Assembly: GCF_000014005.1 (NCBI RefSeq)
Contig: NC_008009.1
Coordinates: 4,154,001-4,218,000 of the forward strand
DNA: 64,000 bases
Direction of reading: 5' to 3'
Origin: Candidatus Koribacter versatilis Ellin345
Lineage (GTDB): Bacteria > Acidobacteriota > Terriglobia > Terriglobales > Acidobacteriaceae
Shown here: positions 13,026 to 64,000 of the stretch, piece by piece
Numbering within the stretch: the stretch's first letter is position 1
Layout of the letters: the number at the start of each line of letters is the position of its first letter
Program-made: the position numbers and the translations under genes
Notes under the pieces: model-generated
The model's input: only the letters and a program-made list of their open reading frames with translations
What the model was told of the DNA's origin: nothing
Database searches by the model: none

Positions 13026-13446
13026 AACTTCCTCCTCAGATTCGGGGTCGTTTGTATAACGGAATAAGTGGGTTTTCCAGCGGAGATGTGGCGGGGAGAG
13101 GGGGGAACTTTTCAAAGTGGCAACGGCGTGCGGGAAACGACATCCTCAACCCCTGCGCTGTGACATCTACTGCGGGCCCGAAGGTACTACAAGCAGGCGG
13201 AGAACTCTTGTGGGGTGTAGGAGGATGGTCGGAAGTTCAACCGCGAGTGCTGGAATCGATGTTCCATCCAGAAGGCGTTCCCTGGAATCGCCTATTCAAC
13301 CTGGGCACTACGGTCGTTTATGACCTGCGCTCCCCGCCTGCTCTTATTAAGTTGCCATCATTCTGCCGTGCGCATCGATGCTGGTCTATGCGGTAGGTCA
13401 CGACCGAGCGTGACGTACGTCACAATTTTCGGCCACGGAAAATGGA
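13026..13446. other. Intergenic region with no convincing gene
   Basis: About 420 bases separate the synthetase paralogue from the next minus-strand gene. Short frames here lack ribosome sites and protein-like composition. The only notable element is the CRP-like palindrome at 13409-13424. Confidence 0.5.
13409..13424. promoter_or_regulatory. CRP/FNR-type palindrome
   Basis: CGTGACGTACGTCACA contains the perfect 14-bp palindrome GTGACGTACGTCAC and matches the CRP consensus TGTGA-N6-TCACA at 9 of 10 positions. It lies between two minus-strand genes, so the promoter of the acetyl-CoA synthetase paralogue is the likeliest target. A near-identical site is at 46072-46087. Confidence 0.5.
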
Positions 13447-35710: not shown

Positions 35711-36235
35711 ATGAGCTTCCGCCAGCGCATCGAGCGTGTCGTGAGTTTTGGCTCACTCATACTCGTGTGCGTGTGGATCTTTCGTGCGCTTTACGGAATT
35801 GCAGTTGGGATCTACACCGGCCATGCGCGAGAGGTATTGATGCCATGGATCTGGATGCTGGTCGCGACTTGCGTAGGGGAGGTTCTGGGTTACCTCTACT
35901 TGAACTATTACCCATCCACATTTTCCGACCATCGCGCAATTGATGCGCCGCCGGAACCAGAACCACCCAAAGTCGAGCAGTTCGTTCTCAAGTTCAAGAA
36001 GATGGTCCAGGTCTTCTTCGTGATAACGGTCACGTTCATGATCGCGTTAAATGCGTTCGAGGACCTTACTGGAAAAATCGGCTGGCACGTCGCATTCGCG
36101 ATATGGGTGATCGTCTTGACCGGCTTTATGACTTGGCTGCTGATACTCGAACTCTACATTCGTTATGCCAGTTCCATTCTTAGTGAGCGCAATGTAACGC
36201 CCGTGCCGTTCACGCGACGCCGCGCTCGATCCTGA
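35711..36235 (+). CDS. Hypothetical multi-pass membrane protein
   Basis: The 174-residue protein has four predicted helices (about 12-34, 44-64, 98-118, 125-150) separated by a Pro/Glu-rich loop (PPEPEPPKVEQF), and a basic C-terminus (FTRRRARS). No known family is recognised. It lies divergently from recQ and upstream of another small membrane protein, with a gap of 32 bases, suggesting a two-gene unit. Confidence 0.6.
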   Translation: MSFRQRIERVVSFGSLILVCVWIFRALYGIAVGIYTGHAREVLMPWIWMLVATCVGEVLGYLYLNYYPSTFSDHRAIDAPPEPEPPKVEQFVLKFKKMVQVFFVITVTFMIALNAFEDLTGKIGWHVAFAIWVIVLTGFMTWLLILELYIRYASSILSERNVTPVPFTRRRARS

Positions 36236-42926: not shown

Positions 42927-44750
42927 ATGCCGTATCCCGCGTCTGTGTTTGGGCCTGCCGTACGTAACCAAGTTCTCCGTTCCCTTTTATTGATTGCTCT
43001 CATTCCGGCTGCTCTTTTCTTGAGCGCCTGCGGCGGCAGTAGTTCCAGCACGACAGCAACTACCGGAGTCGCGCCAGTCTTCACCAGCACGGCTCCGACC
43101 ATCGCGCGCGAAGGCGTTCTGTATACCTACGACGTCACCACGACGACGTCGGACGGCAGCACGGTGACCTACGCGGCAACCACTGTCCCGAGCGGCGCCA
43201 CCTTCGATGGCGCCACCTTGAAGTGGACGCCTACCCACGCCGAATCGCGTATCTCGAACTCATTCACAATCACTGCTACCACCAGCAATAACGGAACCGC
43301 CACGCAGTTCTTCAGCGTCACGCCAAATGGCAATATTGACGGTACCGCCGTTGATCACGCCGTCACGGGCAGTGGCTTGAAAAATTACAACCAGGACCTC
43401 AGCGGTTCTGTCGTCGAAGCCCTCGTTCCCGATGGCAAGGGTGGCTACAACACGGTGAGAGGATCGGGCAAGGATGACGGCACCTTCAGTGTGGGCAACA
43501 TCGGCACCGGCAGCTTCTGGCTGCATGTGCAGCAGCCGGAGGTCGGTACTCTCCAGGACAATTACATCTGGACCAACGCCAGTGATGTCGACCTCGGCAT
43601 GCTGCTCGGCCAACGACCGGATGTTGTGCAGGAGAAGCTCGGCCAGACCATCACGACAAGCTTCGATCTCGCCGTTGCCCCTAAGAGCGAAGACTCTCTC
43701 GCGTGGGCAAGTCCAGATGCAGGTGCTTTTGGAAACGGCCTGCCGACTTCTTTCACGCAACATCTTGTGTCAACGTTCCCGCAGTCGGGCGGCCTCATCG
43801 ATAGTGCCAAGGGAGATCGCGGCTTCTTTGTTCATTACTCGCCAACGTCCACTGGCCTCGGCGTAGCCGTTGATGCTGCCGAATACGACAGTATTACGCA
43901 GACTGATGGCGGAACAACGAACCTGACCACCAATACCGCTGCGCTCAGCGGAACCAGCACCGCCAATCCGGTGATCAAGATCACGCAGTGGGACGCGCTG
44001 TATGCGGGTCTGCCTGGGGTTACCCCTCTTCTAAAAGAGTTCGACTTCTACGACGCACGCTATCCCGGAACGGAAGGCCCCGCGGGCGGTATCGACATTG
44101 CCTATGGTCCAGACCTGCGAAACGTCACCACGGACACAGACCTGGGCAGTTTTAGCTATGCCATGATTTCCAAGACCGGCGTTCCCTACACCCAGTTTCT
44201 CGACTACGGCCTCCGCATCATTAATGTCGGTTCGAGCAATTTTGAATTTGTCGTCGGCGGCGCAATCTTCACCAACGCAGTGCCGACCTCTGCCACTCCG
44301 ATCGTTCCGGTTATAAGTTTGCCGCGCTCCGTAACCGTGGATGGCAAAGATTTCCTGAGCGACCAGACCAACATTTCGTTGAGCCCACAAATCTCGTGGT
44401 CCACTCCGTCGACGGGCACTCCAACGTCGTACGCTTTGTACGTCTACGACACAAGCAAGTTCAACGCGATCGCGTCGTTTTATACCAATGGAAACAGCGT
44501 GACTGTGCCGGCCGGGATGCTGCACGCCGGCTCCACCTACATCTTTTATTTGGAGGCTTTCCTGTCCCAGAGTACGACGTTTGCAACAGCGCCGTTTCGC
44601 ACAGGAACCAGCCAGGCAATCTCGTTTGTCGTTTCCGGCATAATGACCACGGCCGGAGGCGCCAGTGCGTCAGGCGTGCCCTCCGAGACGAAACAGAAGT
44701 TTAGGGTTACGCCTCGTTTCGTGGGAGCACCGAAGGTTGCAAAGCAATAG
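42927..44750 (+). CDS. Ig-fold lipoprotein, function unknown
   Basis: The 607-residue protein starts at 42927 (AAAGGA upstream). The N-terminal region ends in a lipobox, LSACGG, so it is a predicted lipoprotein. Next comes a putative Ig domain (VFTSTAPTIAREGVLYTYDV ... ATFDGATLKWTPTHAE), the He_PIG type, followed by a DUF-like beta-rich region (~130-520) and a last fibronectin-like segment (ISWSTPSTGTPTSYALYVYD). No catalytic site is recognised. A role in surface binding or envelope structure is plausible. A terminator follows closely. Confidence 0.72.
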   Translation: MPYPASVFGPAVRNQVLRSLLLIALIPAALFLSACGGSSSSTTATTGVAPVFTSTAPTIAREGVLYTYDVTTTTSDGSTVTYAATTVPSGATFDGATLKWTPTHAESRISNSFTITATTSNNGTATQFFSVTPNGNIDGTAVDHAVTGSGLKNYNQDLSGSVVEALVPDGKGGYNTVRGSGKDDGTFSVGNIGTGSFWLHVQQPEVGTLQDNYIWTNASDVDLGMLLGQRPDVVQEKLGQTITTSFDLAVAPKSEDSLAWASPDAGAFGNGLPTSFTQHLVSTFPQSGGLIDSAKGDRGFFVHYSPTSTGLGVAVDAAEYDSITQTDGGTTNLTTNTAALSGTSTANPVIKITQWDALYAGLPGVTPLLKEFDFYDARYPGTEGPAGGIDIAYGPDLRNVTTDTDLGSFSYAMISKTGVPYTQFLDYGLRIINVGSSNFEFVVGGAIFTNAVPTSATPIVPVISLPRSVTVDGKDFLSDQTNISLSPQISWSTPSTGTPTSYALYVYDTSKFNAIASFYTNGNSVTVPAGMLHAGSTYIFYLEAFLSQSTTFATAPFRTGTSQAISFVVSGIMTTAGGASASGVPSETKQKFRVTPRFVGAPKVAKQ

Positions 44751-45066: not shown

Positions 45067-45088
45067 TGCGTTCCGTCCCCAATAAAAA

Positions 45089-45110
45089 CGCCCCGACCGA
45101 AGCCGGGGCG
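45089..45110 (-). terminator. Terminator of the Cys-rich protein gene
   Basis: Stem CGCCCCG/CGGGGCG around ACCGAAGC, followed on the minus strand by TTTTTATT, 22 bases past the stop at 45132. Confidence 0.85.
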
Positions 45111-45131
45111 CAACTCAGGAGGTTCCGAAAA

Positions 45132-45482
45132 CTAGCTGGCTTTGTCCATCTTGCAATGATCGCCGCAGCAGGCCTTGCCGGCCTTGGCCATCTCGCATTT
45201 GCCGTCTTTGCAGCACGACTTGCCCTTAGCCATGTCCTTCATGCCTTTGCAGCAGTCCTTGTTGCAGCTCATTTTGCCGTCTTTCATATCGCAGCATTTG
45301 CCATCCGTGCAGCAGCCGCCGTCTTTCGAACAGCTCTTGGCGTCTGCTTTCGCGCCATCATGGCTGCAACACGAACACGCTTTGCTATCTGTGGATGCCG
45401 CTGGCGCCGCGGACTGTGCCACCATGCCGATCGCGAACAACATCACGACGAACATCACGAAAATCGCATACTTCGGTTTCAT
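45132..45482 (-). CDS. Exported Cys-rich (metallothionein-like) protein
   Basis: The 116-residue protein (ATG 45482, AGAGGA upstream) has a signal peptide (MKPKYAIFVMFVVMLFAIGM, cleaved near VAQSAA). The mature ~90 residues contain about 17 cysteines, mostly as CC pairs (ACSCCSHDGAK, GGCCTDGKCCDMKDGK, NKDCCKGMKD, KSCCKDGKCEM, KACCGDHCKM), with many Lys, Asp and Met. This composition predicts soft-metal (Cu, Zn, Cd) binding in the periplasm. I know no named family. It lies 107 bases downstream of another metal-ligand-rich exported protein on the same strand. Confidence 0.75.
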   Translation of the reverse strand: MKPKYAIFVMFVVMLFAIGMVAQSAAPAASTDSKACSCCSHDGAKADAKSCSKDGGCCTDGKCCDMKDGKMSCNKDCCKGMKDMAKGKSCCKDGKCEMAKAGKACCGDHCKMDKAS

Positions 45483-45589
45483 AAAATCCTCTTTCCAGTG
45501 TCTGATACCGCGGGGAAACACCGCTGCCATGTACATGCAGCGTAGGAAATGTGCGGATCGTGCCTTCAGGCGAAGGCTATGGAAGAGGT

Positions 45590-46036
45590 CTAAACGCGCA
45601 GGTCGGCTTTGGCTTCGAAGACAGGTTTCTGGTAGCGCAACCCAGCGCGTTCCCATATCACGCCGGAATGAGCATTTTCTTCATTCAGGAGGTTGATCGC
45701 ATGGGCGGTCGCGAAGGCGCGTGCCTGCCCATCATCAAGATATTTGGTGGTTCCGCTGATCGCCTGGTCGGCGTGCATCATCATGCAGCCGTCCATGGTG
45801 TCGCAGTCGCTGTCGCCGTGCATCCGGTAGCAAACGATGACCAGGATTTCTTTCGGCGGACAGCATTTGTGCGATGCCATCCCCGCCACATGCGGGTGCG
45901 GCATCATCACCGTGCGATAGGCCATCTTGTCGCAGCTCGGCGCGTGCAACATGGTCATCGGCGCGCACATCGCGCTCACCGACCACATCAGCAACGCAAC
46001 CAGCACAACGCTCGAGATGGCTCTACGGAACTGCAT
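45590..46036 (-). CDS. Exported Met/His/Cys-rich protein, probably metal-related
   Basis: The 148-residue protein has a signal peptide (MQFRRAISSVVLVALLMWSVSAMC) and then a run of possible metal ligands: APMTMLHAPSC, MMPHPHVAGMASHKCCPP, and DCDTMDGCMMMHAD. The C-terminal third has few such residues. No family known. The pattern suggests copper or similar metal handling outside the cytoplasm. A perfect CRP-type site lies 36 bases before its start codon. It is upstream of the Cys-rich gene, so the two could be one operon. Confidence 0.6.
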   Translation of the reverse strand: MQFRRAISSVVLVALLMWSVSAMCAPMTMLHAPSCDKMAYRTVMMPHPHVAGMASHKCCPPKEILVIVCYRMHGDSDCDTMDGCMMMHADQAISGTTKYLDDGQARAFATAHAINLLNEENAHSGVIWERAGLRYQKPVFEAKADLRV

Positions 46037-46071
46037 CGTGGTTCATTCTCTGCTTCGCATCACGAACAGGC

Positions 46072-46087
46072 TGTGACGCACGTCACA
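46072..46087 (-). promoter_or_regulatory. Perfect CRP-type site (TGTGA-N6-TCACA)
   Basis: TGTGACGCACGTCACA matches the consensus fully and is centred 43 bases before the start of the Met/His/Cys-rich gene. A GAGAAT -10-like hexamer on the minus strand (46045-46050) places the site near -41 of a start adjacent to the ATG, class-II geometry. Confidence 0.5.
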
Positions 46088-63069: not shown

Positions 63070-64000
63070 TTGAAATTCGAACTCTTCATCGCGACCCGCT
63101 ATCTCCGCGCCAAGCGCCGTCAGGCGGTCATCGGCGTCATCACCGGGATCTCCATCATCGGCGTGGCCGCCGGCGTCGCATCGCTCATCATCGCGCTCGC
63201 GATCAATAACGGTTTCCGTTCCGATCTCCAGGCGCGTCTGCTCGGCTCCATGTCGCACATCAACCTCATGCGTCTGCAAAACGACGGCATCAAGAACTGG
63301 CGCGATCTTCTTGCGAAGCTGGAAAAGCAGCCGCACGTCGTCGCCGGAGCTCCCGCGATCTACGAACAGGTCTTGATTTCCCGCGGCGCACGCGCACAAG
63401 GCGCACTCCTCAAGGGCATCGTTCCCGCCGATGAACGCCGCGTCAGCGCGCTACTCGACAACGTGAAATTCGGATCCGCCGACGCTCTCGATTCCTCGCA
63501 GAACGGCGAAGGCGCGCCCAAGACGCTCTCCGACGAAGTCACGCAATCCCTGCCGCCGATCGTCCTAGGCAAAGATATGGCCGACACCCTCGGCGCAACC
63601 ACCGGCTCGGTCGTGCTCGTCACCAGCCCGCAAGGCGAACTGACCCCCTTCGGCATCGTGCCGAAATACCAGCGCTTCAAGGTTGTCGGGATCTTCGAGT
63701 CCGGCTTCTACGACTACGACTCTTCCTGGGGCCTGACCCGTCTTGACGACGCGCAAAAACTCTTTGGCCTTGGTGACATCGTCCCCGTCCTGGAATTCAA
63801 AGTAGATGACATCTATAAAGCCCCGCAGATCGCCGACCAACTCGTCGACGTCGCCGGCCAGGGCTTCGGCGCCAAGAACTGGATGGAACAGAACCAGGCG
63901 CTCTTCCGCGCGCTCCGCCTTGAAAAAGTCGTGACTTTCATCACCATCGGCCTGATCGTGTTCGTCGCCGCGCTCAACATCCTCATCTCGCTCATCATGA
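63070..64000 (+). CDS. LolC/LolE-type lipoprotein-release ABC permease, 3' end outside window
   Basis: The frame is open to the window end: TTG at 63070 encodes MKFELFIATRYLRAKRRQAV, the common start of LolC/E-like permeases, followed by a membrane helix (IGVITGISIIGVAAGVASLI) and a periplasmic domain with FRSDLQARLLGSMSHINLMR and, at the end, VVTFITIGLIVFVAALNILI. These proteins extract lipoproteins from the inner membrane, together with LolD. The start is uncertain (TTG, no ribosome site; TACAAT lies 7 bases upstream). Confidence 0.85.
   Translation, partial: MKFELFIATRYLRAKRRQAVIGVITGISIIGVAAGVASLIIALAINNGFRSDLQARLLGSMSHINLMRLQNDGIKNWRDLLAKLEKQPHVVAGAPAIYEQVLISRGARAQGALLKGIVPADERRVSALLDNVKFGSADALDSSQNGEGAPKTLSDEVTQSLPPIVLGKDMADTLGATTGSVVLVTSPQGELTPFGIVPKYQRFKVVGIFESGFYDYDSSWGLTRLDDAQKLFGLGDIVPVLEFKVDDIYKAPQIADQLVDVAGQGFGAKNWMEQNQALFRALRLEKVVTFITIGLIVFVAALNILISLIM

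Follow-up and report, generated by a model that had tools for sequence, protein, structure and literature searches.

A probable copper-responsive leader protein and a putative cysteine-rich metal store

CutF of Rhodobacter capsulatus is a short Sec-exported protein that heads a metal operon and acts on a multicopper oxidase gene. To turn on the downstream gene in copper, it needs a Cys motif, its C-terminus, and export during translation (PMC9973294). The features by which CutF-like proteins are recognized include a length below 150 residues, an N-terminal Sec signal peptide, a Cys/His metal motif in the mature part, and a PP within the last 15 residues, and CutF proper adds an mRNA stem-loop that shields the SD of the following gene and a slowing of translation that depends on metal (PMC9973294). 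Outer-membrane efflux genes are described there as the commonest neighbours of CutF-like proteins (PMC9973294). CruR of Bordetella pertussis is likewise encoded by an upstream exported ORF that acts on the downstream gene; its CXXC stands at a fixed spacing from the arrest motif (PMC9426467), and it arrests in vitro (PMC12992588). CruR and CutF share an architecture with opposite sign, and both proteins are degraded after export and not accumulated (PMC9973294, PMC9426467). CopL (NF033807) and CzcI, whose genes open copper or HME-RND operons, are small, exported, and ligand-rich. Metallothioneins of bacteria and Csp1, an exported copper store built as a four-helix bundle, carry many cysteines and are expected to store Cu(I) as thiolates.

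The present analysis concerns a pair of genes in Candidatus Koribacter versatilis Ellin345, whose genome is a single contig of 5,650,368 bases; the stretch analysed, here called the window, comprises 64,000 nucleotides of this contig (NC_008009.1, positions 4,154,001 to 4,218,000). The favoured reading, to which a probability of about 60% is given, is that the first gene encodes a copper-sensing leader that controls the second, encoding an exported Cu(I) sponge (the effector), and that the unit stands under a Crp/Fnr-type operator.

The window leader resembles CutF as a short, putatively Sec-exported protein with a Cys motif and a special C-terminus at the head of a putative metal operon, with the next gene nearby on the same strand (107 nt). 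At 148 residues it is shorter than 150 residues, and it carries a Cys/His motif in its mature part. In contrast to CutF, it has no PP in its tail, ends in DLR[IV]-TAG, and has no DUF2946 match, and its target would be an exported Cys-rich protein instead of a multicopper oxidase. With CruR it shares the upstream exported ORF placed to act on a downstream gene and a constant interval between a Cys motif and a motif at the C-terminus, but CXXC and RAPP are absent, the spacing is 57–67 residues compared with 45 plus a short tail in CruR, and the downstream gene is another one. CopL and CzcI are alike in being small, exported, ligand-rich, and encoded first in the operon. Because the PP is lacking and DUF2946 does not match, the leader is set beside CutF, CruR, and CopL and not counted as a member of these families. 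The effector resembles metallothioneins and Csp1 in its many cysteines and presumed thiolate storage, whereas it differs from them in arranging CC pairs in a Lys/Asp/Gly-rich chain, in having a putative signal peptide, in being predicted to be unstructured, and in matching no profile. In a limited literature search, neither this pair nor such leaders in Acidobacteriota were found described, and the main text of the CutF paper (PMC9973294) makes no mention of Acidobacteriota.

The gene pair and its conservation

The features of the locus are collected in Table 1. A preliminary description of this DNA, made from the sequence alone, had noted a Cys-pair-rich exported protein and a Met/His/Cys-rich exported one in the same orientation; both ORFs were confirmed, and the Cys count agrees. 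The effector has 17 Cys, six CC pairs among them, in the 94 residues past its putative signal peptide, and the 125 residues counted in the leader include 7 Cys, 8 His, and 11 Met. Signal peptides were assigned by visual reading and from helices predicted at the N-terminus; the N-terminus of the leader is hydrophobic by eye, and its structure model contains a confident helix at residues 2–23. Third codon positions have a G+C content of 0.75 and 0.77 in the two genes versus 0.50 and 0.44 at second positions, which supports the coding status of both ORFs. A single two-gene transcript is likely, because the effector gene is followed by a hairpin and T run resembling a terminator; no sigma-70-type promoter was found by a simple scan at the locus. 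Around the pair lie ordinary genes (GNAT acetyltransferases, methyltransferase-like, TPR, and phytase-like), and none of those adjoining the pair in the window is a metal gene.

Table 1. Features of the leader–effector locus and further Crp/Fnr-type palindromes in the window (positions within the 64,000-nt stretch)
Feature	Position	Strand	Remarks
Crp/Fnr-type palindrome GTGACGTGCGTCAC	46073..46086	minus	50 nt 5' of leader start codon
Candidate -10-like hexamer GAGAAT	46045..46050	minus	22 nt past operator; would give class II spacing, centre about -41.5
Leader (putative sensor) gene	45590..46036	minus	first gene, read from 46036 down to 45590; 148 aa, putative signal peptide, Met/His/Cys-rich middle, tail KPVFEAKADLRV then TAG
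Post-stop segment CCUCUUCC	45581..45588	minus	directly past leader stop codon; pairs with effector SD in predicted fold
Effector SD region GGAAAGAGG	45488..45496	minus
Effector gene	45132..45482	minus	116 aa, exported-looking Cys-pair (metallothionein-like) protein; start at 45482, 107 nt downstream of leader, same strand
Intrinsic-terminator-like hairpin with T run	45088..45111	minus	3' of effector gene, end of unit
Other palindromes	13410-13423, 36020-36033, 43971-43984, 63931-63944

That neither protein belongs to a known family, as first described, holds at the profile level. No Pfam family, DUF2946 included, was found for the leader, the effector has no meaningful Pfam score, NCBIfam gave no match for either protein, and Rfam gave 0 matches at the locus. 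The CopL family NF033807 does not match the window leader itself, and it matches two of ten leader relatives weakly (best E 0.0056). In searches against PDB sequences, the best match of the effector has an E of 0.72 and the leader profile has none; the predicted models of both proteins are unstructured and show no fold (mean pLDDT 46.4 and 53.6).

Single-sequence searches with the window leader recovered no relatives: a scan of genome contigs gave 13 pattern stretches and no relative, and a search at E <= 0.1 gave 22 of 396 genomes, of which the 21 besides its own looked spurious when read. The leader family was instead uncovered by reading the DNA 5' of the Cys-rich gene in relatives. When single effector sequences were searched against 200 genomes of the order, three clear relatives emerged, and a four-row effector profile matched 16 of 397 genomes, 12 of which (its own included) contain a real Cys-rich exported ORF; the matches in G423, G461, G491, and G544 were dropped for having no fitting ORF with more than 4% Cys. 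In all 12 genuine matches, a Met/His/Cys-rich exported ORF lies directly upstream on the same strand. The leader profile, which matched 33 of 397 genomes and whose weak matches were used only where the leader was readable, added eight pairs (G717, G632, G603, G582, G418, G576, G732, and G687); G696 and G622 (stop inside) were not counted. At one locus (L081, in G696), a deletion seems to have fused the leader with the end of the effector, which may be real or an assembly fault.

Co-occurrence in other Acidobacteriota, a check proposed in the preliminary description, turned out in favour of the pair: the two genes are adjacent, in the same order and on the same strand, in 20 genomes including their own, all labelled as the window's own family, and the named contigs bearing the pair are metagenome-assembled genomes of Acidobacteriaceae or Acidobacteriota. 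The cysteines, whose lack of conservation had been named as a point against the idea, account for seven of the nine invariant columns in a ten-row alignment of the effector, for which the idea is not refuted on this ground.

Leader anatomy and relatives in CusCBA-type operons

The weaker matches of the leader profile are short exported proteins ending in SPPxSPPxxISxLR[IV], here called cus-type leaders as distinct from the pair-type leaders that precede an effector. At all seven loci followed, an outer-membrane efflux gene lies directly 3' of the cus-type leader and is followed by a CusB-type adaptor and, in six of the seven, where the stretch reached that far, by a CusA-type pump. These assignments have profile support from OEP at three loci, from HlyD_D23/YtkA for the adaptor at two, and from CusA/CzcA TIGR00914 at four (1065–1110 bits), and none of the seven cus-type leaders matches Pfam up to an E of 10. 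For the pump at L090, the score is 1078 bits against E. coli CusA and 498 against ZneA, and the methionines of its LYMP, PLxM, and RxDM motifs, those of the CusA copper path, align with E. coli CusA. Across the phylum, a cus-type leader profile matched 30 of 392 genomes, one match per genome being followed, and a CusC-type gene lies directly downstream at 21 of the 30 loci examined (L160 and L163-L166 are unassigned within the 30); at L152, L153, L155, and L156 there is a leader-like sequence, but about 1.5 kb of neighbouring DNA contains no CusC. The CusC-adjacent loci span four families by label (f1, f8-independent: f23, f25, f55, and the window's own family). At loci L090-L096 and L137-L162, CusCBA-type operons through Acidobacteriota are thus headed by short exported proteins whose family has no name.

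Copper, first suggested as a possibility, is the best guess for the metal, because the leader relatives precede CusC at 21 of 30 loci and the pumps inspected are closest to E. coli CusA. At the window, the copper role is assigned by association, since the single leader of this genome adjoins no pump; the one CusA/CzcA-family pump above the curated cut-off in the genome lies away from the leader.

Both types of leader share a constrained anatomy. The last Cys lies 57–67 residues before the C-terminus in 47 of 49 leaders, the exceptions being a decayed copy in G735 and L096, which carries an extra Cys, and CC at 58-59 and C84 are conserved or nearly so. In 17 representatives anchored at the C-terminus, identity is 0.08–0.09 (near random) in the linker and 0.78 over the last three residues. 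All 21 pair-type leaders end in [LM]R[IV]; of the cus-type leaders, 25 of 28 end in LR[IVL], L145 and L154 being left out of the latter tail counts. Since synonymous codon changes occur inside the tail, the peptide is what is kept. The stop codon is TAG in 20 of 21 pair-type and 19 of 28 cus-type leaders, versus 43 of 116 confident genes at nearby loci; the preference has a binomial probability of 8e-8 for 19 of 20 leaders, in related genomes whose counts are non-independent. Within the last 15 residues, a PP is present in 26 of 28 cus-type leaders but in 10 of 21 of the pair type, and the window tail, YQKPVFEAKADLRV, lacks it there. The window form of the tail looks derived, because L057 and L078 carry both a PP and a KPVFDLKTDLRI-like tail of the window type. 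Several relatives are 150–157 residues long.

This anatomy bears on whether both proteins could be periplasmic metal buffers or chaperones, with the leader passing Cu(I) to the Cys-rich store much as SilE or CusF might feed a sponge. The two proteins are exported-looking and ligand-rich, always occur together in the 20 genomes, and are both modelled as unstructured, as such a system would allow; yet it would have no need for a fixed spacer of 57–67 residues of random sequence, for a conserved stop-adjacent tail, or for a preference for TAG, and the place of the leader relatives in front of CusC is one that known cis-acting leaders occupy (PMC9973294). A buffering function for both proteins is thus considered unlikely. 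The preliminary description had taken the two for a periplasmic metal-buffering pair, of which it stands that they are conserved, exported-looking, ligand-rich, and belong together; the leader as a buffer does not fit an anatomy that resembles a cis-acting leader or sensor. Judged by the fixed distance from its cysteines to the C-terminus, the stop-adjacent tail, and its position as the first gene of the operon, the leader is probably a sensor.

In G735, a genome of the same genus that is 93% complete, the leader (L097:7868-8302) has lost most of its cysteines, the CC included (the Cys 35, 58, 59, 78, and 83-84 region), while keeping its operator and tail. A terminator-like hairpin stands where the effector would be, and the effector profile has no match in that genome. 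Decay of the cysteines is what might be expected of a cis-acting sensor with no other work, as far as a single case can suggest.

Intergenic RNA and the Crp/Fnr-type operator

In the window, the predicted intergenic fold, in which the segment past the leader stop codon pairs with the effector SD, has a z of -2.24; four of 200 shuffles are equally stable, and the SD pairing has a p of 0.03. Over 19 loci, the post-stop/SD duplex has a mean z of -0.42, and the SD pairing is 0.70 versus 0.61 in shuffles and 0.72 at eight ordinary gene starts of the window; p is 0.03 or lower at four of the 19 (the window, L031, L071, and L078). Anti-SD pairing as a family-wide law, striking by eye, failed against shuffles. 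The modelled folds are consistent with an SD-masking hairpin that may act in the window and is not supported across the family, and control of termination is equally possible.

Of the 21 pair-type leaders, 18 are preceded by the strict operator site GTGAYNNNNRTCAC, which stands at -50 to -54 in 13 of them, at -69 in four, and at -83 in one; among the remaining leaders, L060 has one mismatch, L059 has a half-like site, and L078 has none. Only two of seven cus-type leaders have GTGAYNNNNRTCAC on their 5' side. Among 16 leaders, the hexamer consensus has A at position 2 in 13, A at position 4 in 12, and T at position 6 in 12, and if GAGAAT serves as the -10 element in the window, the transcript would start about 2 nt before the leader start codon. 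The genome contains 81 GTGAYNNNNRTCAC sites versus 8 for the reversed pattern, and the window contains five palindrome sites versus 0.21 expected. In the window, an acyl-CoA-synthetase-like ORF on the minus strand has the 13410 site 295 nt upstream of it, and the other three outside the pair's locus are inside ORFs. Of the 39 genome sites inspected, window ones included, 18 fall inside ORFs by crude gene calls and 21 outside, where the neighbours include pyruvate:ferredoxin oxidoreductase, a TPR protein, a multihaem cytochrome with ResB, a ferredoxin, nuoA, a radical SAM protein, and cytochrome c. Such a neighbourhood suggests low-oxygen control.

At about 1.824 Mb in the same genome as the pair, a full Crp/Fnr gene (L128:512-1228) is followed by an ORF consisting of a cNMP-binding domain only (L128:1396-1890), with the palindrome between them. 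In G448 (L031, 1-8000), the pair sits after radical SAM, Crp/Fnr, ScdA-like, and NO-reductase-like ORFs, the last two recognized by eye, and the palindrome precedes several genes of that upstream cluster.

The operator context also touches on the direction of control. In a CruR-like arrangement, metal would relieve an arrest and lead to Rho-dependent termination, so that the effector would be switched off and the module would serve metal supply, for example to low-oxygen respiratory enzymes. CruR and CutF share their architecture with opposite sign (PMC9973294, PMC9426467), the Crp/Fnr context would suit such a role, with the G448 module standing after a cluster that has Crp/Fnr-type and other operators, and the SD-masking hairpin has no family-wide support; however, a protein with 17 Cys suits storage or detoxification more than uptake, and the leader relatives precede efflux operons, which makes repression by metal quite unlikely.

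Proteins rich in CC pairs bind many thiophilic metals, and the effector could serve in redox, nitrosative, or zinc/cadmium protection instead of copper handling. The Crp/Fnr-type operator and the position of the G448 module after NO-reductase-like and ScdA-like ORFs, as read by eye, would agree with such a function, but the tie of the leader relatives to CusA-type pumps bearing copper-path methionines argues for copper, and a role in any of these other stresses appears improbable. The notion that the two are unrelated low-complexity exported proteins and neighbours by chance has almost nothing left to commend it and was rejected: low-complexity Cys/Lys sequence does yield spurious matches, as in the four of 16 effector-profile matches without a Cys-rich ORF, but gene order and strand are constant in 20 genomes, with an intergenic distance of 76–165 nt at the 19 loci measured.

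Proposed mechanism and its implications

In the favoured reading, that of a copper-sensing leader and an exported sponge, the leader would be a Sec-exported short protein of the CutF/CruR/CopL type. Its Cys/Met/His region would encounter metal outside the cytoplasm, most likely Cu(I), at a time when the C-terminal tail is still inside the ribosome. Binding of the metal would alter the speed at which the tail, ...DLRV-UAG, is finished, and would thereby change the translation or transcription of the next gene. From the likeness to CutF, we infer that the effector is switched on with copper. The effector itself would be an exported unstructured Cys-pair protein that binds metal through thiolates in the periplasm as a metallothionein-like sponge. 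A Crp/Fnr-family regulator bound at about -41.5 would activate the unit and so join it to an anaerobic or respiratory regulon, with induction at low oxygen. Cu(I) is most harmful at low oxygen. Within this reading, the conserved pair and its order, the operator, the tail, the distance from the last Cys to the end, and the tie of the relatives to CusCBA-type operons are seen in the sequences themselves, and the ribosome arrest, copper as the metal, the direction of control, metal binding by the effector, and induction at low oxygen are deduced from them.

A more specific proposal, offered tentatively and at odds clearly below even, is that these leaders constitute a class of metal-sensing arrest leaders in which arrest would occur at termination on LR[IV]-UAG and not on PP, with the metal site kept at a constant reach of 57–67 residues beyond ribosome and translocon, and that the window form evolved from PP-bearing CusCBA leaders of Acidobacteriota and moved to an exported metallothionein also under Crp/Fnr control. 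If the termination-arrest reading were true, both the oxygen state and extracytoplasmic copper would be read before the sponge is made. On the favoured reading, copper-sensing nascent-chain control would extend to Acidobacteriota, a dominant soil phylum, and to a target of a new kind, an exported metallothionein-like protein, with an arrest motif at the termination site suggested and a fixed spacer that would place the metal site beyond the translocon. Copper defence would also be tied to a Crp/Fnr regulon, and two otherwise "hypothetical" families would gain names.

Effector-like sequences outside the phylum

A Capnocytophaga exported Cys/Lys-rich protein (L053:2520-2960) resembles the effector, and a protein of Chitinophagales (L054:5677-6243) seems, by eye, to join an exported heavy-metal-associated domain to a tail with CCKxxKC motifs like those of the effector. 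Both are probably look-alikes and not relatives, and the tail of the latter, judged from its sequence, suggests convergent use of the CCKxxKC motif for metal.
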